A DNA stretch of 64,000 nt, taken from Candidatus Kapaibacterium thiocyanatum (GTDB lineage Bacteria; Bacteroidota; Ignavibacteria; Kapaibacteriales; Kapaibacteriaceae). Made by a program: the position numbers and the translations under genes. Positions within the stretch are counted from its first letter, which is position 1. Each line of letters begins with the position of its first letter. The DNA lies in assembly GCA_001899175.1 (NCBI GenBank), contig MKVH01000021.1, forward strand, positions 124,001 to 188,000, read 5' to 3'. Below the pieces are notes generated by a model. It worked only from the letters and a program-made list of their open reading frames with translations, was not told the DNA's origin and did not search any database. This document shows positions 10,995 to 61,558 of this stretch, one piece after another.

Positions 10995-11002
10995 AAAGCT
11001 AC

Positions 11003-11035
11003 AAGCCGTATCCCTGATGGGATACGGCTTTTTGC
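11003..11035 (+). terminator. Intrinsic terminator after tRNA-Thr remnant
   Basis: The perfect stem AAGCCGTATCCC / GGGATACGGCTT with loop TGAT is followed by a short T-run. It probably served the intact tRNA-Thr gene before integration. Confidence 0.85.
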
Positions 11036-11255
11036 GTATCGGGGAGCATCCAGAGTCAGCAGATAGAATGGCTTAGATTGACATAAACCATACATAGAAT
11101 AGCATAGACTTTCGTGCAGTTTCCGTGCAGAAATCAGCTAGCCATCTTTCCTTCCGCCCATACATTCTGTTGCTATCAACGCCTTTCCTGATACAAAAAA
11201 CACCCAACAGATACGATCCGGTAGGTGCATGAATCTGACTACTACGTGCAACCAG

Positions 11256-41948: not shown

Positions 41949-42447
41949 CCATCGCTTTGCGGATCGATAGTTCGTCGAGAGAAGCCAGTGGAAGGCTCAT
42001 GAAGAAGCGAACCCTGTTCATGATCTGATTGAAGATGTCGTCGAACATGACCATCTTCTCGGTGTCGGTCCCGTGCACTGCGGCAGGGTCTTCGAATCCC
42101 CAATGGAACGTCATGGGTGTACCGGGCCATATCGGACATACCTCGCCACCGGCACGATCGCATACCGTGATGATGAAGTCCATTGCGGGTGCTCCAGGCA
42201 GGGCGAATTCGTCCCAGCCCTTGCTCCGAAGGCTTTCCGTAGGGTATCCCAATGTCCTGCAGAGCTCGAGGGCGAAGGGATTCACGATGCCTGTCGGATG
42301 ACTTCCAGCACTGAAGGCCGTGAATCTGTCCTTGCCGATCGTGTTGAATATGGCCTCCGCCATGATGCTTCGAGCGGAGTTGCCGGTGCAGAGAATCAGG
42401 ACGTTGTAGTGTTCCCCGCCGACGGTATGGGAGTGCGGTATCGTCAT
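41932..42447 (-). CDS. arsC: Arsenate reductase, low-molecular-weight phosphatase type
   Basis: 171 aa. The ATG overlaps the arsR stop (ATGA). The P-loop is LCTGNSARS (Cx5RS) with further Cys in ITVCDRAGGEVCP and the DPAA loop, the pattern of thioredoxin-linked ArsC. It reduces arsenate to arsenite for export by Acr3. It is about 30 residues longer than the S. aureus protein, mainly at the C-terminus (IMNRVRFFMSLPLASLDEL), as in many Bacteroidota and proteobacterial versions. Confidence 0.92.
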   Translation of the reverse strand: MTIPHSHTVGGEHYNVLILCTGNSARSIMAEAIFNTIGKDRFTAFSAGSHPTGIVNPFALELCRTLGYPTESLRSKGWDEFALPGAPAMDFIITVCDRAGGEVCPIWPGTPMTFHWGFEDPAAVHGTDTEKMVMFDDIFNQIMNRVRFFMSLPLASLDELSIRKAMDGMHG

Positions 42448-42845
42448 CGTTTCCTCACCGGATTCCTGGCGACGGATTGTGCGGATTCCTTCCTCGTGGT
42501 CGTCGTCGCTTTCTTCTTCGGAAGATCAATCGTTACCGGACTGCAGACAGGCAGGCATGGCATGCCACCACAACAGTTCTCCGTCAGATAGGCGATGACG
42601 TCGTTCATCCTCCCGAACTCGGCGGAATAGTGGAGGTATCGCCCCGAACGACGTACGTTCACCAGACCCGCGATGGAGAGTTCCTTCAGATGGAAGGACA
42701 ATGACGCCGGAGGTATTCCGATCGAATCGCCGATCGCACCCACGACCAGACCGTCCGGACCAGCTTGTACGAGCAGGCGATACACCGACAGTCTGGTTTC
42801 GTGTGCGAGCGCGGTCAGCGCAGCAACGACAGTTTTCGATTCCAT
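42444..42845 (-). CDS. arsR: ArsR-family arsenic-responsive repressor
   Basis: 133 aa. The winged helix carries ETRLSVYRLLVQAG and PPASLSFHLKEL. The classic ELCVCDL arsenic site in helix 3 is absent. Instead the C-terminal part has ENCCGGMPCLPVC, resembling the C-terminal CC-xn-C site of Acidithiobacillus-type ArsR. It ends in a Lys/Arg-rich tail. It should repress the operon and release DNA on binding arsenite. A candidate operator overlaps its start. Confidence 0.9.
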   Translation of the reverse strand: MESKTVVAALTALAHETRLSVYRLLVQAGPDGLVVGAIGDSIGIPPASLSFHLKELSIAGLVNVRRSGRYLHYSAEFGRMNDVIAYLTENCCGGMPCLPVCSPVTIDLPKKKATTTTRKESAQSVARNPVRKR

Positions 42846-42934: not shown

Positions 42935-42972
42935 ATCGGGCCGGCCGATGGTTGTCCATCGACCGGCCCGAT
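42935..42972 (-). terminator. Strong hairpin after the OmpA gene, likely terminator
   Basis: The inverted repeat ATCGGGCCGG-TCGATGG / CCATCG-GCCGGCCCGAT has a short ACAA loop. No T-run follows, but its position right after the last gene of the fibre operon suggests termination or mRNA stabilisation. Confidence 0.6.
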
Positions 42973-42996: not shown

Positions 42997-45027
42997 CTAC
43001 TTGTTGGGCGTTTCCACCGTGATGAGTACCGTACGACAGAACAGACGTCCTTCCGGCAGGTTGTTGTCGAACATGTCCGTAGGACCGAAGCCCTTGACAC
43101 GGTCGCCCGCAGCGGCGAGACGCTTGCCGGTCTCGACGGCGCGCTTCTCGGACAGACGGATGTTGTATTCGGGGCTGCCCGAACGGTCCGTATAGCCTGC
43201 CACACTGACGGTCGACGACGGCTTGATACGCGTCTTCACGATGCCGAGGATTTCCTCGTGCTTGGCACTGAAGGCACTCTCGTTGAAGCCGAAGATGATG
43301 AGCGTGAAGCGTTCCACGGTCTTGTCAGAACGCGTGAACTGACGCACCGCGATTTCGGGTGAGGCCGCGGTACGGATACGTCCGTCGTTGTCTTCGACTT
43401 CGAGTGTGATCTTGAGCGGCTTCTTGATCTTGGGCAACTCCTGCAAGGAACTTTCCACATCGTACTGCAGGGTCTCGGGCGGAGCTCCTTCACCCTTCTG
43501 CTCGCTGATGATCTTGTCGCCCTGGCGTACGATGAGTTTCCAGCGCCTGACACCGGCATCGGCCGTGATGTTCGCACCGGCCTTGATCACCGGAGCATTG
43601 GTGGTGCGCACGGTATCCGTGAAGTACAGCGGATCGAGAATGGTCTTGTCATCCGATGTGATCTCGACGCGTCGGTTCTCACCCTGGCCATCCGGCGACT
43701 TCGGATTCGATGGCAGCGACGGCAGTCCCCTGCCCGTGATCTTGATCCGTCCTTCGTCGATACCCCATACGTTCACGAGGTAGTCCTTCACGGTCTGCGC
43801 GCGGTCCTTGGCCAGTGCAGACGCGTTGTGCTCGCGGTCGACATCGGCCGTACAGCCCGTCAGCGTGAGCTTGGCCGCAGGGCGTTGCCGCATGCGCGTG
43901 CCCACGATGTTGAGCGTGTGATGGTAGATGGACATCGTGGACAGGCCGTTGACCGACGACTCGTTGAACGATGAAATGGAATCCCTGGGAATCTGCACGT
44001 ACCGCTCCGGCAGCACGGACGAACTGTCTTCGAAGAAGATGTAGTTCAGTACCGCGTACAGGTTCAACGGAACGACATCCGTGATGTCCACCGTGGAATC
44101 GCTGATGGGCAGGTTCTGTGCGTCGAGCAACTGTACCGTCATATTGTTGACGGCGAGCACGGGCTCGGGAGGAGGCGGGGGTGGTGGCGGAGGAGGAGGA
44201 GGCGGGGGTGGTGGAACCGGCACGACCCACGTGTTGAACTGGACACCGACGCCGAAGCGCAGCCCGTTCGCCTTCCAGTCCTGGTTCTTCTGCAGATTGG
44301 TGAGGCCGATCGTGTAGAGTACTTCCGGCACGATGGACAACGTCCGATCGGCATTGAGCGGAAGCTCGTACCGCAGACCTGCAGTGGCCGCCATCCACAT
44401 CGATGCGGCATCGGGAATCGTACCCGAATACGACATGCGCGTACGCTGGTCGTTCTCGAACGTGGCGTCGCTCGGTTCGAGGATCCGCTCGCTCTGGTCG
44501 AACGACGTCCCCACACCGAGTCCGAGAGTCATGCCACCGATCACGCTCAGATCACCCACGACGGCATACCGCAGGAGCGGCTCGATGGTGACGAGCGTGC
44601 GGCGCGTGGAGAGCTGATGTCGGAAGATGCCGTCGATGGCCGTACCGTCGATGTTGATCGTCTCGTGTTCGTCGGTGGTCATGTCACCCGGCAACGTTCC
44701 GAGGCCGATGCGGCCCTGTACCGCGAGACGAGGCGACAGGAAGTATTCGCCGAGTGCGGCGATGTTGAGGCCGAGCCCCGTACCGCTGGAATACTCCGGA
44801 CAGCAGCTCGGAATACCTGGCAGACCGTCGATGGCGACGCTGTGCTTGAGGATGGATACGCCGCCGGCGGCACCGATACTGTATGTCCGATACGGCGTCA
44901 GGTCCAGCGTATCCGTCTTCTGCGCATACAGCGGCGTGACGAGCGACAAGGCTGCGGTCGACACGATACCGATGGCGGCTGTCAGCGCCCCGCCGAGCGG
45001 GCGCGAAGATCGTAAGCGAAATTTCAT
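42997..45027 (-). CDS. OmpA-family protein with polyproline linker and two OmpA-like domains
   Basis: 676 aa. A signal peptide (GGALTAAIGIVSTAALSLVTPLYAQ) precedes an outer-membrane barrel-like region of about residues 35-270 (YFLSPRLAVQGRIGLG). A 16-17-residue run of Pro follows near 275-292. Two OmpA C-terminal-like modules follow: one with LTGCTADVDREHNASALAKDRAQ and the other with VAGYTDRSGSPEYNIRLSEKRA, both of the peptidoglycan-binding type. The ATG overlaps the stop of the upstream gene. As the last gene of the fibre operon it could anchor the surface structure to the wall. Confidence 0.85.
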   Translation of the reverse strand: MKFRLRSSRPLGGALTAAIGIVSTAALSLVTPLYAQKTDTLDLTPYRTYSIGAAGGVSILKHSVAIDGLPGIPSCCPEYSSGTGLGLNIAALGEYFLSPRLAVQGRIGLGTLPGDMTTDEHETINIDGTAIDGIFRHQLSTRRTLVTIEPLLRYAVVGDLSVIGGMTLGLGVGTSFDQSERILEPSDATFENDQRTRMSYSGTIPDAASMWMAATAGLRYELPLNADRTLSIVPEVLYTIGLTNLQKNQDWKANGLRFGVGVQFNTWVVPVPPPPPPPPPPPPPPPPEPVLAVNNMTVQLLDAQNLPISDSTVDITDVVPLNLYAVLNYIFFEDSSSVLPERYVQIPRDSISSFNESSVNGLSTMSIYHHTLNIVGTRMRQRPAAKLTLTGCTADVDREHNASALAKDRAQTVKDYLVNVWGIDEGRIKITGRGLPSLPSNPKSPDGQGENRRVEITSDDKTILDPLYFTDTVRTTNAPVIKAGANITADAGVRRWKLIVRQGDKIISEQKGEGAPPETLQYDVESSLQELPKIKKPLKITLEVEDNDGRIRTAASPEIAVRQFTRSDKTVERFTLIIFGFNESAFSAKHEEILGIVKTRIKPSSTVSVAGYTDRSGSPEYNIRLSEKRAVETGKRLAAAGDRVKGFGPTDMFDNNLPEGRLFCRTVLITVETPNK

Positions 45028-45902
45028 TTGCGGATCACCATGCTGCTCGTGAACAATTCGCTTGGCGTCATGAGGACGACGCGATACGTACCGCTGGAGA
45101 TGGTCGAGACATCGACGCTCACCTCTTGTCTGCCTGGTGCGCGGTCACGCGTATCGAACATGACGATTTCCTTTCCGGCGTTGTCGACGAGATAGAGTCT
45201 CGTCATGCCGCGTTCGACGATATCGAGAGCGATCGTGGCGGTCGTACTCGCCGGCATCGGTGCGATCGAGGCGATACCCGCCGCACGCGATTTCTTGATG
45301 AGACGCGGAACCCCATCGATGATACAGACGCCCGTGGCCTGGAAGACGCCGGGATACTTTTCGGTCGAGATGGTCGAGGCGCCGACCCACTCCACGGTAT
45401 CGACGGACATCACCGTGGTATCGGCGTTACCGAGCGTGACGAGGAAGGGAACGTCGGCGAGCGTACCGGCGGAGTCGCGCATGGTACCCGTCACGGTGAG
45501 GATGCAGTCGTCACCGTCACGTTCGCACGGGAAGGAGCCCTGATGTACGAGGACCGTCGCATTATAGCGCAGCTTGACGATGAAGTCACGCGGACCGTCG
45601 ACGACGAGGTTATTGGACGAGATGAGCATGACGGGAATGTTCACCTGTGTACCGACCTCTCCTTCGGTATTCGGTACGGCGACGATGGTGACGCCCGTAC
45701 GCGGACGATACCAGAAACCGGCATAGCGATGCGAGCCGTCGGCGAGACGTGCGTGACCGATCACACCCTGCCCCATCGTGCCTTGATGATGCAGCGTGCC
45801 GTCGGTGGCGTGGACGCTCCCCGAACCGACGACGCTTCGCACCTGCGCGGAGGCACCGATGGCGGAGAGAGCGAGGACGGCCAGACATAGAAGACGTTTC
45901 AT
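45024..45902 (-). CDS. Secreted protein with cohesin-like region and T9SS sorting tail
   Basis: 292 aa from the ATG at 45902, beginning a signal peptide (LLCLAVLALSAIGASA). Residues of about 85-195 read GEVGTQVNIPVMLIS, then FIVKLRYNATVL, the strand pattern of cohesin or carbohydrate-binding type beta sandwiches. The last 80 residues are a T9SS type A tail (ASIAPMPASTTATIALDIV, SGTYRVVLMTPSELFTSSMVIRK in two parts). It is the only member of the operon with a clear T9SS signal. The cohesin call is tentative. It may display or crosslink the fibres. Confidence 0.72.
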   Translation of the reverse strand: MKRLLCLAVLALSAIGASAQVRSVVGSGSVHATDGTLHHQGTMGQGVIGHARLADGSHRYAGFWYRPRTGVTIVAVPNTEGEVGTQVNIPVMLISSNNLVVDGPRDFIVKLRYNATVLVHQGSFPCERDGDDCILTVTGTMRDSAGTLADVPFLVTLGNADTTVMSVDTVEWVGASTISTEKYPGVFQATGVCIIDGVPRLIKKSRAAGIASIAPMPASTTATIALDIVERGMTRLYLVDNAGKEIVMFDTRDRAPGRQEVSVDVSTISSGTYRVVLMTPSELFTSSMVIRK

Positions 45903-45913
45903 GGATGGAGTCC

Positions 45914-48900
45914 TCATTGGAATAGCGTGACGGTGATGACATGCCCGGATGCATCGTAGTCGGCACCCGACAGATTGGTGACGGACATGAGGAGCCGTCC
46001 GTCCGTCGCCGTCATTGCCTGTGCGAAGATGCCGTCGGGCAGCGGCGGATTGACGGAAATGGATACACCGAAGTTGTTCCAGCCGCCGTTCCACCACCAG
46101 GACTGCACCGTGAAATTCGGCGCCATACCGACACCCATGTCGATCTGTGATACCGAACCGATGGTGGTACCGTCCACACCGAAGCGGAAGGAGCCGTTGA
46201 TCTCCAGTCTGATGTTCGCGGGAGGATTGTTCGTGCCGATTCCCATGTGGACGGGTGTACCACCGTTGACGCCGGTGATACCGCCGAAGACGATGGCATT
46301 GTTGGTATCGACCACGGCGCGCAGTCCGATGGCCGTGGCATTCTGCAGCGTGGCCTGTCCTGCGTCGGCGTAGGCACCGATGAACATGTTGCCGGTTCCG
46401 GACTGCAGCGTGCGGCCTGCCGCAAGACCTACGGCGACGTTGTCGTCGCCGGAAGTGAAGTTGGCCAGGGCCTGCTCGCCGACGATGACGTTGCCGTTAC
46501 CGGTCGTCATCGTAGTCGCCGCGCGATCGCCGGCGACTACGTTGTTGGATCCGGTCTGAAGTGCCGGTGCCACGTAGGCGCCGATGGCGACGTTGTCGTC
46601 GCCCGTACGATACTGGTCGAGTGCATGCGAACCGATGACCGTATGATCGTCGCCACCTTGCAGGCGCGGCAACGCGTACTGTCCGATGACCGTGAGGTTG
46701 CTCGACGTCACGCTCCGCGACGGTGCGAGCGATGCGACGCCGTTACCGATGATCGTGTTGTTCGATCCCGTACTCAGCGACAGGGCGGTGTTGGTACCGA
46801 CGATGGTATTGCGCTTGCCGATGTTCGACCAGTTGGCAGCGGTGTTGTATCCGAGGAAGGTATTGTATCCGCTGTTGCGCTGCGTATTCAGTGTCGGACC
46901 GATATAGACGTCACCCGAGTCGCTGTGAGCGAGATCCAGCCATTTCTTGTCGCCGAGATAGTAGGACGATGCCGAGTCGAGATAGATACCGCCATTGCGG
47001 ATCTCCAGACCTCGCGCATATGCCGTTCCGGTGGCCTGGAGGTTGACCGTGAGGGCCGTGGCGTCGTAGTTACCGGGCCCCTTCGCCTCCGACCTGATGC
47101 GGGCACCCATGGCTGCGCCGGCGGGTGCGGAGGGCGCATAACGCACGTCGAGGAACATCCGGCCCGAGGCCAGGATGGAATCGGCCGGAGGATTACCGTT
47201 GCCGAGCCGAACGTACCGTCCGGGCATCGTCAGTGGACGGTATGGCTTGCCATTCTCGCTGATGTACGCGTTGTTGGCTGCTATCGATGACAACATTCCC
47301 TTGTTGACCGCAGGATCGCCGAAAGTGGCCGGACCACCGGCATTACGCATCTGGAAGACACCGTTCAGCAGAAGTGATACGCTCTTGTCCGCGGTGTTGC
47401 GGAAGTAGAATTGTCCGACGTAGTTCTGATGGCTGGCACGGTATCCGATCAACGATGAATACTGGCCTTCCTGTGTGAACTTCATGGCGACGGAATTGAG
47501 ACTGGTCGGCGTGAACGGCGTGTACAACTCGAGCATGTTGATATAGGGATTCGCCATACCGACGGAGGGAGACACGAGTTGCACCCTGGGAACGCCACTC
47601 TCCATACTACGATTGGAGATGACGGAACCTACGGGCTCCACAGGAGCCATGGTACCGCTGGCGAAGGTGATGACCTTCGTCGTATCCTCAGTATGATACT
47701 GCACGTCGTTCGTATTCACCGTGATACCGCGGATACCGCCATGCGGTGCACGATCGGTGAAGGAGACCTTCAGGCCATACGAAGGACCGAGATCCAGGAT
47801 CGCCACCGGCGACGTCGTTCCGATACCGAGGCGGTTGTCGGCGGCGCTCCACGTGAAGTCCGCATCGGCTGCGAGCGTCGAATCGTCGGCCCAATAGGTG
47901 AGTGCATTCGTGAGGCCCGATCCATACAGATAGTTCCGTGCCTGCCACGATACATCCGTACCGTTGCTGACCAGCCACTTGCCCGCATGCCCGGCCTGCG
48001 AAGGCAGAAGCCCCGTCCGTGCAGCCAGCGCCGTCGACGCGGCCGTACCACCATGCGCGACATCGACGATGCCCGTCGTCGGTACACTGTTGATGATGGA
48101 GAGGATGGTGTTACCGGACGTGGGGGCGATGGTGGGATTCGGATACGTTCCCGCAAGCACGCCACCGGCGCTTCCACCGGGCTCGATGCCACGCAGGAGA
48201 ACGTTCTGTGCGGACGTCACACGACCTGCACGATCGAGCGTAAGACGTACGCTGTGCGTACTGTCGCCGTAGACACCGGTCGTGACTCCTGTCGGCGACA
48301 TCTTCTGCGACGTGACGTTGGCATCGGCGAGCTTCGACGTCGTCACCGAACCAGGTGCGAGTTTGTTCGTCGTCACGTCGCCGTCGGCGAGCTTCGACGT
48401 CGTCACCGAACTGTCGGCGAGCTTCGGCGTCGTCACGTTCCCGTCGGCAATCTTCGGCGTCGTCACGTTCCCGTCGGCAATCTTCGGCGTCGTCACGTTC
48501 CCGTCGGCAAGCTTCGGCGTCGTCACGTTCCCGTCGGCGAGCTTCGGCGTCGTCACGGCGAGCGGAGCGATCTGCGGATCGGGATACGTTCCCGTGAGAT
48601 CGCCACCGGCAGGACCGCCAGGCTGAACGCCGCGGATGAGGATGTTCTGCGCGTCGGTGACACGACCCGCACGGTCGAGAGTCACGTGCACGGCATGCGT
48701 GCTGTCACCATACGTACCCGGCGTAACGCCCGTAGGAGCGATCGCCGCATTCGTCACGGCATCGTCCGCGAACTTCGGCGTCGTCACGTTCCCGTCGGCA
48801 ATCTTCGGCGTCGTCACGCTACCATCCGCGAGCTTTCCTGTCGTAATCGCACTGTCGCGAATGGAAGGATTCGGATACGTTCCCGCCAGATCGCCACCGG

Positions 48901-50974
48901 CCGAACCTCCCGGTTCTACCGAACGGATGAGTACGGATTGCACATCCGTGATACGACCGGCCTGATCCACCACGATACGCGGTGAATGCGTACTGTCACC
49001 GTACGTACCAGGCACGACACCCGTCGGCGACATCTTCTGCGTCGTGACGTTGGCATCGGTGATCTTCGGCGTCGTCACACTCCCATCGGCGATCTTCGGC
49101 GGCGTCGCAGCGCCATCGGCAAGCTTCGGCGTCGTTACGGCACTGTCGGCAAGTTTCGCGGTCGTGACGTTGGCATCGGCGATCTTCGACGTCGTCACCG
49201 CACCATCGATGAGCTTCGGTGTCGTTACGGCGCCATCGGCAAGTTTCACGGTCGTCACAGCGCCGTCTGCAATCTTCGGCGTCGTTACCGATCCATCGGC
49301 AAGCTTCGGTGTCGTCACGTTACCATCGGCGATACGCTGCGTGACGACCGTGTTGTCGCGGATATCGGGATCGGGATAGGTTCCGGTGAGGTCGCCGCTG
49401 GCAGGACCACCGGGCTGTACGCCGGTGATGGTCGTCGTGGTGATTGCCGTGATACGACCGGCACGGTCGACGGTCACGACGGGTGTTTCCGTATACAGAC
49501 CGTATGCTCCCGGCACTGCGCCGGTAGGCGACATCTTCTGCGTCGTCACCGTACTGTCGGCAAGAACACTGTCCACGACGGCAACGTCCTGGATCTTCTG
49601 CGTCGTCACCGCGCCATCGGCAAGTTTGGCAGTCGTCACCGCGCCATCCTGGAGCACGATCGTCGTCACCGACCCATCGGCAAGTTTGGCAGTCGTCACC
49701 GCGCCATCCCGGATCTTCACCGTCGTGGCCGCACCGTCACGAATGGCGGGGTTCGGATAGGTACCGTCGAGGTCGCCACCAGCGGCGCCACCCGGCACCG
49801 TCGTGCGGATCGTACGATTCACGGCCGACGTCACACGACCGGTGGCATCGACGTCCATGCGGACAGCCTGCGTTTCCGATCCATACGTTCCCGCAGTTAC
49901 GCCCGTCGACGTGAGCTTGTCCGTCGTGATGGAGTTATCGGCGATACGGTCCGTCGTGATCGCATCGTCGGCGAGTTTCATGGTCGTGACACTTCCGTCG
50001 GCAAGGTTCGGTGTCGCCACCGATTCATCGGCCAACTTCGGCGTCGTCACCGAGCCGTCCTCAAGCTTCCCTGTCGTCACGGAACCATCGACGAGCTTCG
50101 GCGTCGCCACGGCGCCATCGGCGAGTTTCGCAGTCGTGACACTTCCATCGACGAGCTTCGGCGTCGCCACCGCACCATCGGCAAGTTTCACGGTCGTCAC
50201 GGCGCCGTCGGCAAGCTTCCCTGTCGTCACCGCACCATCGACGAACTTCGCAGTCGTCACGGCGCCGTCGGCGAGTTTCTCTGCCGCCACCGATCCGTCG
50301 ACGAGCTCCGGCGTCGTCACCGCACCATCGGCAAGATGGGAGGCAGCGATCCCGCCGTCGCGTACTTCGATGGATACCTGTGGACCGGCAGGATTCGTGA
50401 CGTCGATGGTGGAGCCAGGACTGGTGATGGTGACGAGACGATCGGGGCGGCTCGATACCATGATGGTGTCGCCGCTGGACGTTACCGTCGTGCCGCCTTC
50501 GCCGACGATGACGAGGTGTCCGTCACCGCCATTCACCGAACGAACGACGCCTGTCGTCATCGGGCCGACGACGCTTACGCTATCGGCGACATTCGTATGC
50601 AGTGCCGTCGGAATGGATACCAGCGCCAGGCGCGGCTCCATCTCGGTACCGCCGTTCACGGCGATGGCCATCCACATCGGACGGTCGAAGATCGCGCCGA
50701 TCGTCGACTGCGTGCCGAGCATGACGTCGAACACACCGGCGAAAGTCCGCACGGTATGGGTCTCGGTCCACAGCGCCGTACCGCCCGTGGCGGCATCGTA
50801 GAGACGGAACGTCACGGCGTGATTGCCTTCGGCCACCGGCCGGCCCCCCGCATCCGTGATCAGTCCTTGATAGTTGAGGATACGTGGGCTCGTCGAAGAC
50901 TGTGCGAACATAGCCGGCATGGCCATCAGTCCACACCCTGCGGCGACGAGAATCAATCGTTGAAGCTTCTTCAT
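45914..50974 (-). CDS. Giant repeat-fibre protein, paralogue C
   Basis: 1,686 aa from the ATG at 50974, at the signal peptide (LILVAAGCGLMAMPAMFAQ). Order of parts: an N-terminal beta domain (RILNYQGLITDAGG to IPTALHTNVADS, about 25-155); a VNGGDGHLVIVG module; blocks of decapeptides such as KLADGAVTTP; five GGDLTGTYPNP-type modules, each preceded by a GTYGDSTxxxxxxxDRAGRIT stretch; an IDxAHGGT-type module near 970; a beta-rich C-terminal part; and YadA-like head repeats (NTIIGNGVASL, NVAIGAYVA) near 1400-1550. It ends in ITVTLFQ without a usual T9SS motif. It is the third of three tandem paralogues and is probably a surface fibre. The export route is not evident. Confidence 0.85.
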   Translation of the reverse strand: MKKLQRLILVAAGCGLMAMPAMFAQSSTSPRILNYQGLITDAGGRPVAEGNHAVTFRLYDAATGGTALWTETHTVRTFAGVFDVMLGTQSTIGAIFDRPMWMAIAVNGGTEMEPRLALVSIPTALHTNVADSVSVVGPMTTGVVRSVNGGDGHLVIVGEGGTTVTSSGDTIMVSSRPDRLVTITSPGSTIDVTNPAGPQVSIEVRDGGIAASHLADGAVTTPELVDGSVAAEKLADGAVTTAKFVDGAVTTGKLADGAVTTVKLADGAVATPKLVDGSVTTAKLADGAVATPKLVDGSVTTGKLEDGSVTTPKLADESVATPNLADGSVTTMKLADDAITTDRIADNSITTDKLTSTGVTAGTYGSETQAVRMDVDATGRVTSAVNRTIRTTVPGGAAGGDLDGTYPNPAIRDGAATTVKIRDGAVTTAKLADGSVTTIVLQDGAVTTAKLADGAVTTQKIQDVAVVDSVLADSTVTTQKMSPTGAVPGAYGLYTETPVVTVDRAGRITAITTTTITGVQPGGPASGDLTGTYPDPDIRDNTVVTQRIADGNVTTPKLADGSVTTPKIADGAVTTVKLADGAVTTPKLIDGAVTTSKIADANVTTAKLADSAVTTPKLADGAATPPKIADGSVTTPKITDANVTTQKMSPTGVVPGTYGDSTHSPRIVVDQAGRITDVQSVLIRSVEPGGSAGGDLAGTYPNPSIRDSAITTGKLADGSVTTPKIADGNVTTPKFADDAVTNAAIAPTGVTPGTYGDSTHAVHVTLDRAGRVTDAQNILIRGVQPGGPAGGDLTGTYPDPQIAPLAVTTPKLADGNVTTPKLADGNVTTPKIADGNVTTPKIADGNVTTPKLADSSVTTSKLADGDVTTNKLAPGSVTTSKLADANVTSQKMSPTGVTTGVYGDSTHSVRLTLDRAGRVTSAQNVLLRGIEPGGSAGGVLAGTYPNPTIAPTSGNTILSIINSVPTTGIVDVAHGGTAASTALAARTGLLPSQAGHAGKWLVSNGTDVSWQARNYLYGSGLTNALTYWADDSTLAADADFTWSAADNRLGIGTTSPVAILDLGPSYGLKVSFTDRAPHGGIRGITVNTNDVQYHTEDTTKVITFASGTMAPVEPVGSVISNRSMESGVPRVQLVSPSVGMANPYINMLELYTPFTPTSLNSVAMKFTQEGQYSSLIGYRASHQNYVGQFYFRNTADKSVSLLLNGVFQMRNAGGPATFGDPAVNKGMLSSIAANNAYISENGKPYRPLTMPGRYVRLGNGNPPADSILASGRMFLDVRYAPSAPAGAAMGARIRSEAKGPGNYDATALTVNLQATGTAYARGLEIRNGGIYLDSASSYYLGDKKWLDLAHSDSGDVYIGPTLNTQRNSGYNTFLGYNTAANWSNIGKRNTIVGTNTALSLSTGSNNTIIGNGVASLAPSRSVTSSNLTVIGQYALPRLQGGDDHTVIGSHALDQYRTGDDNVAIGAYVAPALQTGSNNVVAGDRAATTMTTGNGNVIVGEQALANFTSGDDNVAVGLAAGRTLQSGTGNMFIGAYADAGQATLQNATAIGLRAVVDTNNAIVFGGITGVNGGTPVHMGIGTNNPPANIRLEINGSFRFGVDGTTIGSVSQIDMGVGMAPNFTVQSWWWNGGWNNFGVSISVNPPLPDGIFAQAMTATDGRLLMSVTNLSGADYDASGHVITVTLFQ
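48275..48560 (-). repeat. 30-bp tandem repeats in paralogue C
   Basis: About nine consecutive 30-bp units encode KxADGxVTTx decapeptides. Units between roughly 48,420 and 48,560 are nearly identical in DNA, which makes them prone to slippage. Similar arrays lie at about 49,035-49,340 and 49,915-50,340 in the same gene. Confidence 0.9.
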
Positions 50975-50981
50975 AACGTCG

Positions 50982-53900: not shown

Positions 53901-56048
53901 TGCACTGTCGGCGAGCTTCGACGTCACCACGGTGGACATGGCTACCTGCGGATCAGGATACGTTCCCGTGAGATCGCCACCGGCAGGGCCACCCGGCGTG
54001 ACGGTGCGTACGAGCACATCCTGTGCCGTCGTCACGCGTCCTGCGGTATCGACGGTGATCCGTGCGGCGTGCTGTGCATCTCCATAGGCGCCGGACGCGA
54101 CTCCTGTCGGCGACATCTTCTGCGACGTCACGGCATCGTCGGCGACCTTCGGCGTCGTCACGGAACCATCGGCAAGCTTCGGTGTCGTCACACTGCCATC
54201 CGCGAGCTTCGACGTCGTCACATTGACGTCCGCGAGCTTCGACGTCGTCACGTTGCCGTCCGCGAGCTTCGACGTCGTCACATTGACGTCCGCGAGCTTC
54301 GACGTCGTCACATTGACGTCCGCGAGCTTCGACGTCGTCACGCTGCCATCGGCAATCTTCGGTGTCGTCACGCTGCCGGCGGCGAGCTTCGCAGTCGTCA
54401 CCGAACTGTCGGCAAACTTCGATGTCGTAACGGAGCTGTCGGCAAGGCGTGGGTTGGGATAGCTGCCCGTGAGATCGCCGCCGGCTGCATTCCCCGGCTC
54501 GACGCCGCGGATATCGACGCTTCTCATCGACGTCACGCGTCCGGCTTCGTCCACGGTGACCAGCTGCGTCTGTGTCGCATTGCCATATGTACCAGGCGCG
54601 ACGCCGGTGGACGTCATCTTGTCGCTGGTGACGGCGGAATCCTGGATCTTCGATGTCCTCACCGCGCCAGCGGCGAACTTGAGCGTCGTGATCGAACCGT
54701 CCTGAAGAGCGAGGGTCGTAACGGCACCGTCGGCGAGCTTGAGGGTCGTCACCGCTCCCGGTGCTATCGCCGGTGTACCGACGCTGCTGTCGGCGATGGC
54801 CACCGTCGTGATCGAACCATCGCGCAGCGACGGATTCGGATAGGTACCGGTGAGATCGCCGCCGGCGGGACCGCCAGGTTGCGTACCGGTGATCGTCGCT
54901 TCACGTGCCGCTGTGATACGCCCCTTCGTGTCCACCGTGATGACGGCCGACTTCGTCGAATCGCCATACATCCCGGCCGTCACACCCGTCGGCGAGAGCT
55001 TGGCCAACGTGATCGACGTGTCCTCCACGATACGTGTCGTGATGGAACCGGGTGCGAGCTTCGCGGTCGTCACACTTCCATCGGCGAGCTTTGCGGTCGT
55101 CACGCTTCCATCGGCGAGCTTCGCGGTCGTCACGCTGCCATCGGCGAGCTTCGCGGTCGTCACACTGCCATCGGCGAGCTTCGCGGTCGTCACGCTTCCA
55201 TCGGCGAGCTTCACGGTCGTCACACTGCCATCGGCGAGCTTCGCGGTCGTCACGCTTCCATCGGCGAGCTTCACGGTCGTCACACTCCCATCGGCAAGCT
55301 TGGGCGTCGTCACACTCCCATCGGCAAGCTTCGACGTCGTCACCGACGTATCCGCGAGCTTCGACGTCGTCACGCTTCCATCGGCCAGTTTCACGGTCGT
55401 GACGCTTCTATCGGCAATCTTCACGGTCGTGATCGCATTCGCAGCGACGTCGAGGCTGACGTCCGGTCCTGAACCCGACGTCACGGCGACACTATTGTCC
55501 GAACTCACGAGCGTCTTCACGCCATCCGGTGTGGAACCGATCCTGATCGTATCACCGGTGCGTACGACGGTGGTACCACCGGAACCGGTCATCGTCACAT
55601 CGCCTTCACGACCGTTGATCGTTCGCACGATACCCCGTACCGACGGCGACAGTGCATAGGCGGTATCGGCGACCTGGGCATTCATGGCATAGGGAACGGA
55701 CGTCAACGCAAGACGCTGCTGAAGTTCCGCACCACCGTCGATCGACAGTGCCAGCCAGTATTGTCGGTCGAACGCCATCGTCAATGGCGTACTGATCCCC
55801 AGCACGACGTCGAAGACACCCGTGAAGGTGTTCACCGTATGTGTTTCCGACCATACGGCAGTGCCGCCGCTGGCGACGTCGTACAGTGCGAAGGCGACGG
55901 TATGGCTTCCCTCCGGTACAGGCTGACCGCCGCCATCCGTCAACAATCCCTGATAGGAAAACGTCCGCGGCTGATTCTGTTGGGCATGGGCGGTTTCACC
56001 AACGAGGATGCAAGCGGCGCAGGCGATAGCGAGGGCAAGATTCTTCAT
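50982..56048 (-). CDS. Giant repeat-fibre protein, paralogue B
   Basis: 1,688 aa from the ATG at 56048, five bases after GGAG; an ATG at 56060 is possible but has no such site. The signal peptide ends near AHAQ. The architecture is the same as paralogue C: an N-terminal beta domain (RTFSYQGLLTDGGG), decapeptide arrays, exactly five GG-type modules (the last reads GGVLTGTYSAP), an IDIAHGGTGA module, a beta-rich C-terminal region and YadA-like repeats (NIGIGYLAG, NILIGEGAL). It ends in MPIVITIIQ. Only 7 bases separate it from paralogue C. The first decapeptide block has 13 units in a row, the most regular stretch in the window. Confidence 0.85.
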   Translation of the reverse strand: MKNLALAIACAACILVGETAHAQQNQPRTFSYQGLLTDGGGQPVPEGSHTVAFALYDVASGGTAVWSETHTVNTFTGVFDVVLGISTPLTMAFDRQYWLALSIDGGAELQQRLALTSVPYAMNAQVADTAYALSPSVRGIVRTINGREGDVTMTGSGGTTVVRTGDTIRIGSTPDGVKTLVSSDNSVAVTSGSGPDVSLDVAANAITTVKIADRSVTTVKLADGSVTTSKLADTSVTTSKLADGSVTTPKLADGSVTTVKLADGSVTTAKLADGSVTTVKLADGSVTTAKLADGSVTTAKLADGSVTTAKLADGSVTTAKLADGSVTTAKLAPGSITTRIVEDTSITLAKLSPTGVTAGMYGDSTKSAVITVDTKGRITAAREATITGTQPGGPAGGDLTGTYPNPSLRDGSITTVAIADSSVGTPAIAPGAVTTLKLADGAVTTLALQDGSITTLKFAAGAVRTSKIQDSAVTSDKMTSTGVAPGTYGNATQTQLVTVDEAGRVTSMRSVDIRGVEPGNAAGGDLTGSYPNPRLADSSVTTSKFADSSVTTAKLAAGSVTTPKIADGSVTTSKLADVNVTTSKLADVNVTTSKLADGNVTTSKLADVNVTTSKLADGSVTTPKLADGSVTTPKVADDAVTSQKMSPTGVASGAYGDAQHAARITVDTAGRVTTAQDVLVRTVTPGGPAGGDLTGTYPDPQVAMSTVVTSKLADSAVTTSKLADANVTTPALASGAVTSQKMSPTGTAGTYGDSSHVARLTIDRAGRTTTAQDVLITNVEPGGPAGGDLSGTYPNPSIAPGAVTTIKLADGSVTTPKLADGNVTTVKLADSAVTTVKVADGNVTTSKLADVNVTTVKLADGNVTTAKLADANVTTAKLADDAVTSQKMSPTGVSVGTYGDSTYVASLTVEASGRVTQAQNVLARGVPPGGPAGGVLTGTYSAPTFAATSGNTIANVINNASTTSLIDIAHGGTGAATILGARTALLPTQTADETFLRTDGTNASWSGINAAFGRGTANRVAIYMAARTLKADNWFIDPVLNTMGIGTQRTDATLNFADLSGQQLAVQSSGPYSSSIGTYPNEMRLTTIPGADHSIEANNGAGTTQNMIIRTNPSGEGRYTVVRNGQPVSALAGSEAHLELYSANSGNPRMETRLSFTQDGQYAGRISYRAASTNGPGQFIFSSHNDAPTSIEHNGTLSMIGSAQDAFITPTSGSSVIYFDSTSRKVLASENGGPFKALNPFGQYVQLNLPFTNWASEDTVSDRSKYLFDVAYASTAPMGPARGARIEGISTAPGNNFANGVHIEVTRVGNGVPRAVVGKGDMIIDSVHGYIIDYSNMKFWRGVSGGTNMYLGGNTGTVPGNTNTIGIGFNALSPMVGNDNIGIGYLAGMILSGGSNNILIGEGALYSSPAASPVTADDNVAVGYMARGRATKTARRTTAVGASTLAIGTTDSLNIAIGQSAGTQIGTGSRNVLIGKDAGMNLTTGNSNVFLGRGVSYGATATSANVAVGRDAGGTGVGLDSMVSIGALHSYTGAMSHGGGVLGARANLQTDSGMVLGGNGGAGYPNVGIGTTKPKRRLDVNGDIIIGTNGTVIEDIIKYPYTLPFGTTPQAFTANQEVILEVPVPGAKVGASVAVTLRADPGNYFQEITTFTGWAYVPVNGTVRFALQPAVYNYTKNTDMPIVITIIQ
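55041..55438 (-). repeat. 13-unit 30-bp tandem repeat array in paralogue B
   Basis: Thirteen consecutive units encode decapeptides of the form KLADGSVTTA. Five adjacent units are identical in protein and differ in DNA only at a few third positions. This favours copy-number change by slippage. Further arrays in this gene lie at about 53,400-53,660 and 54,130-54,450. Confidence 0.93.
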
Positions 56049-56060
56049 GTGCGCTCCCAT

Positions 56061-59000
56061 TTACATCACCGTGATGAAGAAGTCCACCTGCGGCGGATCC
56101 GCGGGGGCATTGAACACGTTCTTGAATTCGATGGTCACCACGTCCGCAGCCGAAACCCGTGCAGTGACCATGATGCCATCCGGAAGATCGGCACTCGGCG
56201 AAAGCAACACGCGCTGGCCGACCTGGGCCCCCGGTGCGGCAACGTTGACGAGGACATGACCACGTGACACGACGTTCGGAGCGTCGACCGTGGAGGTCTG
56301 CCGGAAGATGGATGGTGCGATGACGGAACCTGTGCCGAGTCGCACGGGGCCATTGACATGCAGACGTGCACGCGGACGCGTGACACCGATGCCGACGTTG
56401 GTGTTCGACGTAGCGCCGTTCACACCGGCGATACTTCCGAGCACGATGGCATTGTTCGTATCCACCTGCGCCTTCCATCCGATGGCCATCGATCCGGTGA
56501 GGTTCGGTGTCGTCGTCGTCGTACGCGCACCGATGAACGTATTGCGATCTCCGCCCGTATGTCCGCTACCGGAGTACGCGCCGAGATAGGTATTCTCCGC
56601 ACCGAGCAGGAGGTCGACGCCCGCACTGTCTCCGACGGCCGTCGTCGATGTCGCCCTCTGCGCCGTGCGCAGCGCATCGGTACCGAGTGCTACGTAGCTG
56701 TTGGCGAATCTCATACCGGCCGCTGCACGTGCACCGATACCGACGCCATCGTTGTGTCCCGTGCTGGATGAAGAGTCACCTCCCGATCCGGCACCGACGA
56801 ATGTATTGCGTGGACCCGATCCTCTCGGCGAAACGCCGGCACCGATGAGGACCGACGTGACATGGTTCGCCGTACTGTCGAGCGGTGCGATGTCCGTACC
56901 GATGGCGATCGCATTGGTCGTCAGCATCGGAGAATTGTTCAGGATGTTCTGCCCGATATAGTTCGTGCCATTGTTTGCCGCCCGTCCACCGACTTTCCGG
57001 CCAGCCATGGTATTACCCGTGTTCAACGTCGAGGCGCCAGTCGGCCCGAGACGGATCTGGCCGGGGCTCTGCGTATTGCTGCCTGAGAATACCCTCGAGT
57101 TGCCGATGTTCAGCGACGGCAGCGTGGAGCCACCGTAGAAGTACACGTCGCCGCCGTTGATCTGCATCGCGACGGCCCGTCCTGTGCCGGACGGAATGGC
57201 CTCGAGCGTCAGGCCCGTGGCATCGACGTCACCCACACCCGTGGAGATGGAATTGATCCCTGCGCTGTAGCCGGCTCCTGCCATGGGCTGGAAGTTGATG
57301 TTGAACAGGTAGTTGCTACGGTCCATCACGGTATCGGGTACCGGCGGACCGAGACGCATGTACGTGTCGTTGGTGAAGAGATCGAAGAAGGCCCCACCGT
57401 TCTCCGAGATCTGCAGCTTGTTGGTCGTACCGTTCGTACGGAGCATGAATCCACCGGCGACCGGAGCGATCGACGTGTTGGCCGGCGTTCCGGCGAGGAT
57501 GAGGGCGCCCTGGTTCTCGATCACGTTATAGATCACGTTCAGGCTCATCGTGGTGAACGTTCCGTTGCCCATCGTGGACGATGCGGCATAGTTGAGCGTA
57601 CCCCAGTACTGGTTGCTTTGGTGGAAACGGATGCGTTGTCCGGCGGTCGGATCGCTGACGTTCGTGCTGTGCAGATCGAGGTGCGCCTGTGCGCGGCCGG
57701 CCAGCGTGGAATCCGACGCAGTACCGTAAATACGCAGACGCGGTTCAGCACCCGATGCCATACCGCTGACGCGCATGGTGGGAGAGAACAGGCCGTTCTG
57801 CAGATGTCCGTAGGACACCGTAATGGCATCCGACGCCGTCACGAGGCGGGTATGAACATCGTTCGACGAGTAACCGGTCATGGAGCCGCCGCTCGAGCGG
57901 AGGGCGAGCTTCGCAGCCTGTCCGTTCACACTGATGGGCGCCTTGAGCAATCGGGCACCCGTACCAATGGACAGATAGCTGCCGGCCGAATCCCATACCG
58001 CCGAGGTGGGAGAAACGGACTTCGTCGTCGGCCAGTATGCTGCGACCTGGCCGGTGAAGGCGGCGGATGTACCGACCGTATCGCCGACGCTCTTCCAGAG
58101 AACGTCCGTGCCGTTCGTCGACAGGAATTCCCCTGCATGTCCCGCTTGTGCGGGCAGAAGATTGTTGAGTGCGCCTGAACGCGTATTCGCATTCGTACCG
58201 CCATGGGCGATGTCGAGGACGGACGACGATGCATTGATCGCCGTGACGATGTTGTTCCCCGCAGTCGTGGCGAGTGCGGGATTCGGATAGGTACCCGCAA
58301 GATCGCCACCGGCAGGGCCCCCGGGCTCGACTCCACGGATCGTGACGTTCTGTGCCTGCGTGATCCTTCCCGCGCGATCGATGGTCACCTGACCGGTACG
58401 AAGGCTGTCGCCATAGGTACCCGATAGCACGCCGGTGGGCAACATCTTCTGTGATGTCACGGCGTCGTCAGCAAGAATAGGTGTGGTAACGCTGCTGTCC
58501 CGAAGCTTCGCAGTCATCACGCTGCCATCGGCCAGCTTCGCAGTCGTCACACTGCCATCGGCAAGCTTCGCAGTCGTCACACTGCCATCGGCAAGCTTCG
58601 CAGTCGTCACGCTGCCGTCGGCAAGCTTCGCAGTCGTCACGCTGCCATCGGCAAGCTTCGCAGCCGTCACGGCTCCATCGGCGATGTCGGGTGTACCGAC
58701 GATACCGTCACGGAGTTGCGGATTGGGATAGGTGCTCGTCAGATCACCACCGGCAGGACCGCCGGGTTCCACCGAACGGATGAGCACGGGCTGCGCCGAT
58801 GTGATACGCCCCGTGGCATCGACGGCGATGTGGCCGACGTGTGTGCTGTCACCGTACGTCGATGGTACGACGCCCGTGGGCGACAACTTCTGCGAGGTCA
58901 CGGCATCGTCCTGGATCTTCTGCGTCGTCACGCTGCCGGGCGCAAGTTTCGATGCGGTCACACTACCGTTCGCGAGCTTCGCAGTCGTCACCGCATTCGG

Positions 59001-61109
59001 TGCGATCTGCGGATTCGGGTACGTACCCGTGAGATCGCCACCGGCAGGACCACCGGGCTCGACGTTCGTGATGAGCACGGGTTGGGCCGACGTGATGCGG
59101 CCGGAACGATCGACGGTGATGCGGGCAACGTGTGTGGAATCGGCGTAGGTGCCCGGAACGACGCCCGTCGGTGCCATCTTCGGCGTCGTCACGGCGCCGT
59201 CGGCGATCTTCGGTGTGGTCACCGAACCGTCGGCGAGTTTCGGTGTGGTCACCGAACTGTCGGCGAGTTTTTCGGTCGTCACGGCACCATCGGCAATCTT
59301 CGACGTCGTGACGTTTCCGTCGGCAATCTTCGACGTCGTGGCGTTTCCGTCGGCAATCTTCGGCGTCGTGACATTTCCATCGGCAATCTTCGGCATCGTT
59401 ACCGAACTGTCGGCAAGCTTCGTTGTCGTTACATTTCCGTCGGCAAGCTTCGCTGTCGTCACGGCACCGTCGGCAAGCTTCGACGTCGTGATGGCACCAG
59501 GTGCGATCTGCGGATTCGGATACGTGCCGGCGAGGTCACCACCGGCAGGACCTCCCGGCGTAACGCCGCGGATCGTGAGCGTATCGACGCGCGTGATGCG
59601 GCCCGAGGCATCGACCGTGAGCCGGCGTACCTGCATGGAATCCGTATATGCTCCTGCGATCACACCGCTAGGCGACATCTTCCTCGACGTCACGGTATTG
59701 TCGGCGATCTTCACCGTCGTCACGGCTCCGTCGGCAAGCTTCGCCGTCGTCACGCTGCCATCCTCGATCTTCAACGTGGTGACGGCGCCCGTTGCCAGCT
59801 TCGCAGTCGTCACGGCGCCGTCTGCGATCTTCACCGTCACGACGGCCCCATCGGGGAAATGCTTCGTCACGATCGCACCATCACGGATGGACGGATTCGG
59901 ATAGGTACCGGTAAGGTCACCACCGGCCGCCCCACCTGGCTCCGTACCGGCGATCAGTCGTTCCTCCACACGGATGACGCGACCCTTGTCGTCGATATCC
60001 ACGACGGCCACATGCATGGAATCGCCATAGGTTCCGGATATGCCGACCGTAGGTGACAACTTTTCCGTCGTCACGCTGCCGTCGGCGAACGTTCTCGTCG
60101 TGGCGGCCCTGTCGACGAGCTTCGGCGTCGTCACACTACCATCGGCGAGCTTCGACGTCATCACACTACCGTCGGCGAGCTTCGCAGCCGTCACGCTGCC
60201 ATCGGCGAGCTTCGCAGTCGTCACACTGCCATCGGCAAGCTTCGCAATCGTCACGCTGCCATCGGCGAGTTTTCGTGTCGTGATCGAACTGTCCGCGAGT
60301 TTCACAGTCGTCACACCGTCATCGGCGAGCTTCGTAGTCGTCACGCTGCCATCGGCGAGCTTCGGCGTCGTCCCGGCTCCATCGGCGAGCTTCGCAGTCG
60401 TCACGCTGCCATCGGCGAGCTTCGACGTCGTCACATTGCCGTCGGCGAGCTTCGCAGCCGTCACACTGCCGTCGGCGAGCTTCGCAGTCGTCACGCCACC
60501 GGAGGCGACCGTCACGTCCGTCGTCTCGGCAGCGACAGGGCTGAGCGTCAGCGAAGGATCGGATGCCGTCACGGAGGCGATACCACCCGCAGGACTAGAT
60601 ACGACGATACCGTCGTTCGACGTCGTCACGGTCGTACCGCCCGCCCCCCGCACGACGACGTCGCCTTCGCGACCATTGACGGAGCGCACGACTCCTGTCG
60701 TCGTCGAACGGATCGACATGGCCGTATCGGCCACAGATGCATGAAGGGCGCTGACGACCGTCGTCAACGCGAGGCGCGGCTCCGCTTCGGTGCCATCGGC
60801 GATGGCTATGCCCAGATAGTATTGTTCTGTGAAGGGAGCGATCAGCGGATTGATCGACCCAAGGATCGCCTCGCATCCACCGTTCACCACGGACAACGTA
60901 TGCGTCTCCGTCCAGAACGGAGTACCGCCGCTCGATTCCCGATAGAGCGAGAATGTCACGGCATATCTGCCGCCAGGCAATGGATCGTTGTATATGGACG
61001 TCAGTAGTCCCTGGTAGCGGATCGTTCGCGGCGTATTCTGAGCGAATGCCGTAACGGACGTGAATAGCAGCAGCCCGATCGCTGCGGCCGTCACCAATCG
61101 AAACCTCAT
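56061..61109 (-). CDS. Giant repeat-fibre protein, paralogue A
   Basis: 1,682 aa, ATG with AGGGA upstream. The signal peptide is LVTAAAIGLLLFTSVTAFA. Residues 24-150 form the N-terminal beta domain (RTIRYQGLLTSIYND). Decapeptide block 1 spans about 195-350. Five GGDLTGTYPNP-type modules alternate with DRSGRITSAQ stretches up to about 960, where an LDIAHGGTNA module begins. The C-terminal 700 residues are beta-rich, with YadA-like head repeats (NAIAIGTDIAP, NTFVGAGSG, NTFIGARTT) at about 1370-1555 and a GIGVTRPRARLHVNG segment as in phage tail spikes, but no S74 chaperone domain. The first gene of the 18-kb operon; a promoter-like element lies 45 bases upstream. It is probably an extracellular fibre. 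Confidence 0.86.
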   Translation of the reverse strand: MRFRLVTAAAIGLLLFTSVTAFAQNTPRTIRYQGLLTSIYNDPLPGGRYAVTFSLYRESSGGTPFWTETHTLSVVNGGCEAILGSINPLIAPFTEQYYLGIAIADGTEAEPRLALTTVVSALHASVADTAMSIRSTTTGVVRSVNGREGDVVVRGAGGTTVTTSNDGIVVSSPAGGIASVTASDPSLTLSPVAAETTDVTVASGGVTTAKLADGSVTAAKLADGNVTTSKLADGSVTTAKLADGAGTTPKLADGSVTTTKLADDGVTTVKLADSSITTRKLADGSVTIAKLADGSVTTAKLADGSVTAAKLADGSVMTSKLADGSVTTPKLVDRAATTRTFADGSVTTEKLSPTVGISGTYGDSMHVAVVDIDDKGRVIRVEERLIAGTEPGGAAGGDLTGTYPNPSIRDGAIVTKHFPDGAVVTVKIADGAVTTAKLATGAVTTLKIEDGSVTTAKLADGAVTTVKIADNTVTSRKMSPSGVIAGAYTDSMQVRRLTVDASGRITRVDTLTIRGVTPGGPAGGDLAGTYPNPQIAPGAITTSKLADGAVTTAKLADGNVTTTKLADSSVTMPKIADGNVTTPKIADGNATTSKIADGNVTTSKIADGAVTTEKLADSSVTTPKLADGSVTTPKIADGAVTTPKMAPTGVVPGTYADSTHVARITVDRSGRITSAQPVLITNVEPGGPAGGDLTGTYPNPQIAPNAVTTAKLANGSVTASKLAPGSVTTQKIQDDAVTSQKLSPTGVVPSTYGDSTHVGHIAVDATGRITSAQPVLIRSVEPGGPAGGDLTSTYPNPQLRDGIVGTPDIADGAVTAAKLADGSVTTAKLADGSVTTAKLADGSVTTAKLADGSVTTAKLADGSVMTAKLRDSSVTTPILADDAVTSQKMLPTGVLSGTYGDSLRTGQVTIDRAGRITQAQNVTIRGVEPGGPAGGDLAGTYPNPALATTAGNNIVTAINASSSVLDIAHGGTNANTRSGALNNLLPAQAGHAGEFLSTNGTDVLWKSVGDTVGTSAAFTGQVAAYWPTTKSVSPTSAVWDSAGSYLSIGTGARLLKAPISVNGQAAKLALRSSGGSMTGYSSNDVHTRLVTASDAITVSYGHLQNGLFSPTMRVSGMASGAEPRLRIYGTASDSTLAGRAQAHLDLHSTNVSDPTAGQRIRFHQSNQYWGTLNYAASSTMGNGTFTTMSLNVIYNVIENQGALILAGTPANTSIAPVAGGFMLRTNGTTNKLQISENGGAFFDLFTNDTYMRLGPPVPDTVMDRSNYLFNINFQPMAGAGYSAGINSISTGVGDVDATGLTLEAIPSGTGRAVAMQINGGDVYFYGGSTLPSLNIGNSRVFSGSNTQSPGQIRLGPTGASTLNTGNTMAGRKVGGRAANNGTNYIGQNILNNSPMLTTNAIAIGTDIAPLDSTANHVTSVLIGAGVSPRGSGPRNTFVGAGSGGDSSSSTGHNDGVGIGARAAAGMRFANSYVALGTDALRTAQRATSTTAVGDSAGVDLLLGAENTYLGAYSGSGHTGGDRNTFIGARTTTTTPNLTGSMAIGWKAQVDTNNAIVLGSIAGVNGATSNTNVGIGVTRPRARLHVNGPVRLGTGSVIAPSIFRQTSTVDAPNVVSRGHVLVNVAAPGAQVGQRVLLSPSADLPDGIMVTARVSAADVVTIEFKNVFNAPADPPQVDFFITVM
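60050..60510 (-). repeat. 30-bp tandem repeat array in paralogue A
   Basis: About fifteen consecutive 30-bp units encode KLADGSVTTA-type decapeptides. Smaller arrays in the same gene lie at about 58,490-58,680 (six units, nearly identical) and 59,175-59,490. Confidence 0.9.
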
Positions 61110-61496: not shown

Positions 61497-61535
61497 AAAA
61501 AAAGGCCGAAATCCACTTGCATATGGACTTCGGCC
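61497..61535 (-). terminator. Intrinsic terminator downstream of the glycosyltransferase
   Basis: On the minus strand the stem AGGCCGAAGTCCA / TGGATTTCGGCCT (one G-T pair) with an 8-base loop is followed by a run of T. It is a strong terminator for transcripts coming from the glycosyltransferase gene. Confidence 0.9.
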
Positions 61536-61558
61536 TGAAGCTTGGTGCTCCCTCGGGG

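Follow-up and report, generated by a model that had tools for sequence, protein, structure and literature searches.

Five adjacent genes of Candidatus Kapaibacterium thiocyanatum (genome size 3.27 Mb) probably build and anchor a giant trimeric fibre that faces outward from the cell surface: they encode three fibre chains (A, B and C), a likely adaptor and a likely OmpA-type anchor, and from their sequences we put the probability of this fibre–adaptor–anchor unit, taken as a whole, at roughly 0.6. The most unusual feature of the operon, which is absent from the initial annotation of this DNA, is its set of length-locked shafts with tips that are orthologous in another genus. We tentatively propose, at rather less than even odds, that A, B and C depend on one another to form one heterotrimeric fibre (~1685 residues per chain), which would carry three different tips on one stalk and be fixed to the wall via a T9SS-delivered cohesin adaptor and the OmpA protein. 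More broadly, MAT-like fibres of T9SS bacteria would have the conserved GFW segment found in the adaptor as their partner at the cell surface.

Organisation of the operon

The operon is located on a contig we label C21, and runs on the minus strand from position 61109 to 42997 of the window, the whole 64,000-nucleotide stretch that was analysed (Table 1). Its genes follow each other almost without gaps: 12 nt separate A from B and 7 nt separate B from C, with 56048 and 50974 taken as the starts of B and C, while the C and adaptor genes are 11 nt apart and the adaptor and OmpA genes share a 4-nt ATGA overlap. The coordinates and reading frames in the initial annotation were borne out, as was the 11-base or overlapping spacing which it gave for the genes downstream of the fibres; from their likely starts, the fibre chains are 1682, 1688 and 1686 residues long.

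Table 1 Features of the fibre operon and its surroundings, in window coordinates.
Feature	Position	Strand	Remarks
Intrinsic-terminator-like site between A and its upstream gene	61503..61536	-	14 pairs followed by seven T
Fibre chain A, 1682 aa	56061..61109	-	Signal-like leader; N-domain to ~138; five-module shaft to ~969; tip 713 aa; DUF5907 61.1 bits (cut-off 27)
N-domain of A, 115 aa after leader	60696..61040	-	Related to first half of the MAT N-domain model (alignment; order-wide matches)
Shaft of A	58203..60695	-	SVTTAKLADG-like decapeptide runs and GGDL modules; segments of 256, 127, 167, 97, 147 and 37 aa
Tip of A	56064..58202	-	Head-like repeats and C-terminal β-sandwich (last ~83 aa)
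Fibre chain B, 1688 aa from ATG 56048	50982..56048	-	In-frame ATG 56060 also possible; tip 718 aa
Fibre chain C, 1686 aa from ATG 50974	45914..50974	-	Listed ORF begins farther upstream; tip 712 aa
Adaptor gene, 292 aa from ATG 45902	45024..45902	-	
GFW segment of adaptor	45705..45845	-	Conserved, VVGSGS...GTMGQ...GFWYR; mostly pLDDT <50 when modelled alone
Cohesin-fold domain of adaptor	45303..45695	-	Foldseek 6kgd_A, E 1.3e-7, TM 0.63 by target length; top rows mostly cohesins
T9SS type A sorting-like domain of adaptor	45027..45290	-	Well ordered in model; window copy below cut-offs, family members match
OmpA-type anchor, 676 aa	42997..45027	-	N-terminal region barrel-like by inference; 16-proline linker; two OmpA domains
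Hairpin directly 3' of OmpA stop	42935..42972	-	17 bp, perfect, without T run; 97-nt region folds at -50 kcal/mol, z -6.1

A terminator-like site upstream of A and a hairpin directly after the OmpA stop codon suggest that the five genes are transcribed together; the terminator scan overall returned 7 sites vs 11.2 in shuffles. Promoter-like sites were no more frequent than chance would give (6 in the scan, 5.8 expected). Directly downstream of the operon, at window positions 40890–42845, are genes resembling an arsenic-resistance set (regulator, reductase and transporter, named by eye). Elsewhere in the window, the G+C content dips to 0.48–0.49 at positions 8001–12000, vs ~0.6 in most of the window.

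Conservation of the cassette

The gene order proved to be conserved in relatives: all five genes recur in another genus (genome G004), where the OmpA gene ends at the contig end, at its proline linker, and the fibre–adaptor–OmpA core is found again in four of the order's families (f1, f2, f3 and f9). The three fibre subunits of the initial annotation are thus a feature of the window and of G004; the other complete cassettes examined have one fibre gene.

We collected 34 further loci with a full-length adaptor, using a first search profile made from eight cassette proteins; several of these loci come from one genome, and they are hence not independent. Upstream sequence is available for 33 of them, and every one has a same-strand gene within 238 nt. 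That gene was recognised as a fibre in 27 loci (24 by an N-domain or tail profile, three by GGDL modules), and the remaining six are fragments which these criteria leave unclassified. On the downstream side, which is also available for 33 loci, OmpA is the next gene in 25. The other eight consist of the contig end in G004, six loci with a 268–307-residue protein instead, and one with some other gene. At one locus (L076) the 268–307-residue protein is followed by an OmpA-like protein of 655 residues. The 268–307-residue protein that takes the place of OmpA at L064, L065, L092 and L120 was not recognised as OmpA, and its barrel-like character is our reading of the sequence. One genome, G033, has at least five fibre–adaptor–OmpA cassettes (L067, L077, L081, L082 and L084), with fibre frames of up to 4489 residues.

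This recurrence of gene order marks the cassette as a genuine conserved unit, in which the last two genes likely serve as adaptor and anchor. The conserved order also leaves the earlier suggestion, a surface fibre of several components that is anchored to the wall, as the likeliest reading, now refined to include an adaptor and, in the other complete cassettes examined, one fibre gene. Exported proteins of these types are very common in the genome itself (at least 29 OmpA and 93 sorting-domain matches), which is what an ordinary operon of unrelated exported proteins would draw on, with fibre, T9SS protein and OmpA not forming one structure; such an explanation is nonetheless improbable given that the order is repeated in 34 loci, that the OmpA proteins form a largely fibre-specific clade and that GFW segments pair with fibres, both as described below.

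Fibre chains and their resemblance to MAT fibres

All three chains are built alike. After a leader and an N-domain comes a shaft made up of decapeptide runs and five GGDL modules, and each chain ends in a tip of 712–718 residues. The five GGDLTGTYPNP-type modules which had been noted in each chain were all located, at residues 396, 523, 690, 787 and 934 in A, 396, 523, 690, 786 and 933 in B, and 399, 526, 693, 790 and 937 in C; the last module reads GGVL in B and C, and the second reads SGDL in C. Conservation varies along the chains: identity among A, B and C per 100-column block is 36–51% in the N-domain, 56–76% in the shaft, 18–37% in the tip and 15–21% in the last short block. Across the whole tip it is 28–29% or 30–31%, depending on the alignment.

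The last ~83 residues of the tip were modelled as a β-sandwich, with pLDDT mostly >90. Its nearest structural match is the C-terminal domain of Klebsiella phage depolymerase (Z 9.0 and 8.6), and these two depolymerase rows are the only ones that stand out for the tip, modestly. Lectin likeness is weaker, and we rejected a lectin assignment: discoidin I (Z 6.9) and Helix agglutinins (Z 5.6) score in a range which the tool calls common. Sequence searches of the PDB with A, the adaptor and the C-terminal domain returned nothing convincing.

The chains also have many PHROG tail-fibre matches, as might be expected of a remnant of a phage or phage-derived particle. These matches arise mostly from shared repeats, and phage origin was rejected as their explanation: most of the best-matching stretches fall within the repetitive shaft, all three chains carry a leader, T9SS-type and OmpA genes accompany the fibre genes again at other loci, and there are no phage structural genes among the ORFs examined beside the operon. 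We give this origin hardly any weight.

In plan, the chains look like the MAT (mosaic adhesive trimer) family, with a resemblance that falls below the membership cut-off. In Bdellovibrio bacteriovorus, MAT fibres are reported to be trimers whose tips have been swapped (Caulton et al. 2024, PMC10769870). They and the window chains have in common a leader, an N-domain of similar size directly after it, a long shaft, a conserved base and a diversified tip; the MAT criterion of a conserved base with a diversified tip within one genome describes A, B and C. According to the same paper, MAT tips without S74 include β-sandwiches (PMC10769870). Peptidase_S74, the other MAT tip class, is found in one GFW-linked fibre from outside the order (44.3 bits, cut-off 22). 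The differences are that the N-domains here are below the NCBIfam cut-off, that the operon holds three length-locked chains, and that adaptor and OmpA genes lie alongside. The Bdello_MAT_N model (NF053851, cut-off 60) scores 29.3 bits with B (residues 23–92 of a 1692-residue reading) and 25.0 with C, and finds no match in A at E≤0.5. Direct membership of the MAT family by N-domain was therefore rejected, as all three chains miss the curated cut-off of 60 bits. Across the order, MAT N-domain matches at E≤0.001 are found in 77 of 123 genomes and exceed the cut-off in one. This sole match (G044:C94:6401-6868, L135; 111.8 bits) may be a true MAT fibre or lie on a contaminant contig.

The initial annotation knew of no named system with this set of genes, which calls for qualification: the fibres are close in plan to MAT fibres and thus known in kind, the T9SS-type adaptor and OmpA partner are new, and the three-chain set of locked length is remarkable. 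Among the papers found by searches on T9SS, tail fibres, Kapabacteria, heterotrimeric fibres, MAT and cohesins, no title or abstract opening describes the cassette.

The same contig carries a second fibre outside the window (C21:41.3–44.1 kb, L071; ~1211 residues from its likely start), directly downstream of a small GFW/sorting-domain protein, which is a simpler, two-gene form of the system.

The probable adaptor

The 292-residue protein had been annotated as a cohesin-like T9SS protein. Its cohesin fold is supported by the predicted structure; PF00963 (cohesin) matches at E≤0.01 in 5 of 28 aligned adaptor family members. The T9SS part of the description holds for the family, in which the sorting domain is matched at E≤0.01 in 27 of 28 members by Pfam and in 24 of 28 by NCBIfam (best E 1.3e-12), but the window copy itself is below both curated cut-offs (Pfam PF18962 20.3 vs 27 bits; NCBIfam 17.7 vs 23). 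The protein therefore resembles T9SS type A cargo in its C-terminal sorting-like domain and in the presence of SprA in the genome, and departs from it in the sub-threshold score of the window copy and in accompanying fibre chains that have no such domain. Compared with the cohesins of cellulosome scaffoldins, it has a domain of the same fold by predicted structure, placed here between the GFW segment and the sorting-like domain.

Each half of the adaptor is also found without the other. Long T9SS-type proteins that end in the cohesin-plus-sorting half were examined at 20 loci (L114–L134 without L120, itself a fibre cassette): an OmpA gene of the same family is directly next in 10, and no OmpA is present within the fetched flank in the other 10. 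The GFW segment, the first ~55 residues after the leader, gave 113 listed matches in 66 of 123 genomes of the order, and among these listed matches at least 42 are near a MAT_N-like domain. From the other 71 we fetched 20 previously unexamined loci: 15 have an adjoining fibre N-domain, three have a fibre-like fragment, and two, at contig ends, have neither. In a sample of 395 genomes from the phylum the segment was found in 36, 12 of them outside the order; examination of 16 of the 17 matches listed outside the order showed 11 adjoining a fibre gene and five with no fibre beside them. The low pLDDT of the segment (Table 1) can also come from a shallow alignment.

Because the GFW segment occurs in other small T9SS-type proteins beside fibre genes, and the cohesin-plus-sorting part in long OmpA-linked proteins, the 292-residue protein is likely an adaptor with its GFW segment directed toward the fibre and its cohesin-plus-sorting half toward OmpA. 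From this separate distribution of its halves, it is better read in this way than as the displayed or crosslinking protein first suggested.

The probable OmpA anchor, and export

The OmpA protein with a polyproline linker is as first described: it matches PF00691 (64.5 bits, cut-off 27.2) in two stretches, and has a run of 16 prolines. Asp and Arg mark the peptidoglycan site of OmpA domains; read by eye, the stretches that may hold them are ...GYTDRSG...LSEKRA... in the second domain and ...TADVD...LAKDRA... in the first. The family is large: the organism's own 3.3-Mb genome has at least 29 matches to this protein (29 of 37 candidates scored).

We built a tree from 23 fibre-linked OmpA proteins and 20 others: 17 of the fibre-linked proteins form an exclusive clade (support 90/96) that includes the window OmpA, and six are outside it. 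The fibre-linked label requires 5 changes on the tree; shuffled labels require 14.5, and none of 500 shuffles was as low. The other OmpAs were presumed unlinked from the absence of a listed full-length adaptor beside them, and one of these (L182) is nearly identical to a fibre-linked row.

A fibre with an OmpA-domain wall binder is also what the family name of NF047726 points to: TpgA, the peptidoglycan partner of a trimeric autotransporter adhesin. The systems are alike in pairing a fibre with an OmpA protein, and the OmpA domain has a weak match to TpgA (39.6 bits, cut-off 350). They differ in that A, B and C have no YadA-type C-terminal anchor among Pfam matches at E≤0.5; YadA_head in A scores 13.1, vs a cut-off of 25.

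The genome has a T9SS, since it encodes SprA (856.6 bits, cut-off 200) and 93 sorting-domain matches at E≤0.001. No sorting domain was found in A, B or C. In G033 and G044, two of seven upstream-gene ends exceed the NCBIfam sorting cut-off: L067, which was recognised as a fibre, and L080, a fragment that no other criterion places among the fibres. One possibility is that the window fibres cross the outer membrane riding with the adaptor.

A proposed model for fibre assembly

The gene order, domain content, conservation, matched lengths and orthologous tips observed here fit a model in which the fibre chains would pass the inner membrane by the Sec route and then reach the surface; its binding, export, trimerisation and stoichiometry we infer. 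The N-domain would form the base of the fibre, the decapeptide and GGDL repeats its shaft, and the variable C-terminal regions its binding tip. The GFW segment of the adaptor would dock on the fibre base, the sorting-like domain would carry the adaptor through the T9SS, the cohesin-plus-sorting half would pair with the OmpA protein, and the OmpA protein would hold the assembly to peptidoglycan. The likely role of such a fibre is adhesion to cells or glycan-coated surfaces.

In the Discussion of the MAT study, the surface element bound by the N-domain is said to await further study (PMC10769870). Gene order here offers concrete candidate partners for holding MAT-like fibres, namely the GFW segment of the adaptor and the OmpA anchor, and the GFW segment adjoins fibre genes both in the order and in scattered other Bacteroidota.

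Matched lengths of the three chains

The distance from the YQG motif to the start of the tip is 938 residues in A, 939 in B and 940 in C, and the modules are spaced accordingly: 256/127/167/97/147/37 in A, 256/127/167/96/147/39 in B and 256/127/167/97/147/39 in C. This matching also holds in the other genus: the three G004 fibres measure 625, 626 and 627 residues from YQG to tip, with spacings of 205–207/127/147/39. Some 313 residues thus seem to have been gained or lost in all three chains. The tips are length-matched as well, at 712–718 residues in the window and 720–723 in G004, at about 30% identity.

The tips of the window and G004 are orthologous one to one (support A-a 91/92, B-b 99/99 and C-c 100/97), and the three-fibre set therefore seems older than the split of the two genera. 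The order of the fibre genes differs, being A, B, C in the window and b, a, c in G004. A tree of the N-domains has no A-a, B-b and C-c pairing, and its branches are poorly separated.

Module positions that match to the residue in two lineages are best explained by chains which lie side by side in register, as a heterotrimer or a bundle. Since the chain lengths changed together, the likeliest arrangement of A, B and C is a single in-register A:B:C heterotrimer, or failing that a tight bundle; for the heterotrimer step alone we stop somewhat short of an even chance. Three full-length tip matches are carried by only two of the 123 genomes of the order (G000 and G004, with up to nine candidates scored per genome), which limits the length-lock claim. 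If the length lock does reflect a heterotrimer, it would show a phage-like homotrimeric fibre turning into a three-chain fibre with three tips at once, which would bear on how fibres evolve and on how multivalent binders might be designed.

A, B and C could instead form three separate homotrimers on a common adaptor and anchor, with equal shafts that put the three tips at one height. Trimers with exchanged tips are the MAT precedent (PMC10769870), the part in which A, B and C diverge is the tips, and a single-fibre cassette, if trimeric, is necessarily homotrimeric. Tips could, however, stand at equal height without lengths precise to one residue or corresponding module positions along 940 residues, and the fibres of one genome vary freely when they are in separate cassettes (frames of 3109, 3584, 3768 and 4489 residues in G033). 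We regard separate homotrimers as possible, if doubtful.

The shafts could also match through gene conversion among tandem genes, a concerted evolution without structural meaning. The genes are tandem and repetitive, and the window shafts are 61–63% identical, vs 30–31% for the tips, with raised identity at four-fold sites (49–54% vs an expected ~33%); some homogenisation among the window shafts is possible. A, B and C also resemble each other more closely in segment 3, which is missing in G004, than in segments 1 and 2, but no more closely than in segment 5, which is common to both genera. The G004 shafts are only 48–51% identical and agree at 25–30% of four-fold sites, where the random level is 27%. 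These shafts were therefore not recently copied from each other, yet their lengths are within 2 residues, and the tips are matched in length despite their low identity. Concerted evolution alone is an unlikely source of the matching, and the in-register assembly of A, B and C continues to be our preferred reading.

As a control, two G010 fibres on separate contigs are 82% identical over 358 C-terminal columns and measure 1153 vs 1590 residues from YQG to tip; a G022 fibre, whose C-terminal end is 78% identical to one of them, measures 1819. Counting against the lock, the adjacent fibres in L157 are unequal, at 499 vs 781 residues. Total length alone means little, because two G014 fibres from separate cassettes have nearly equal lengths (1599 and 1604 residues) and quite different module spacing. 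The chance of equal segments, estimated at 7e-6 for four segments and three genes, is not counted as evidence because it ignores common descent. For the segment comparisons we relied on a gapped alignment: an ungapped one slips by one residue in G004 after segment 1, and in B of the window at segment 4.
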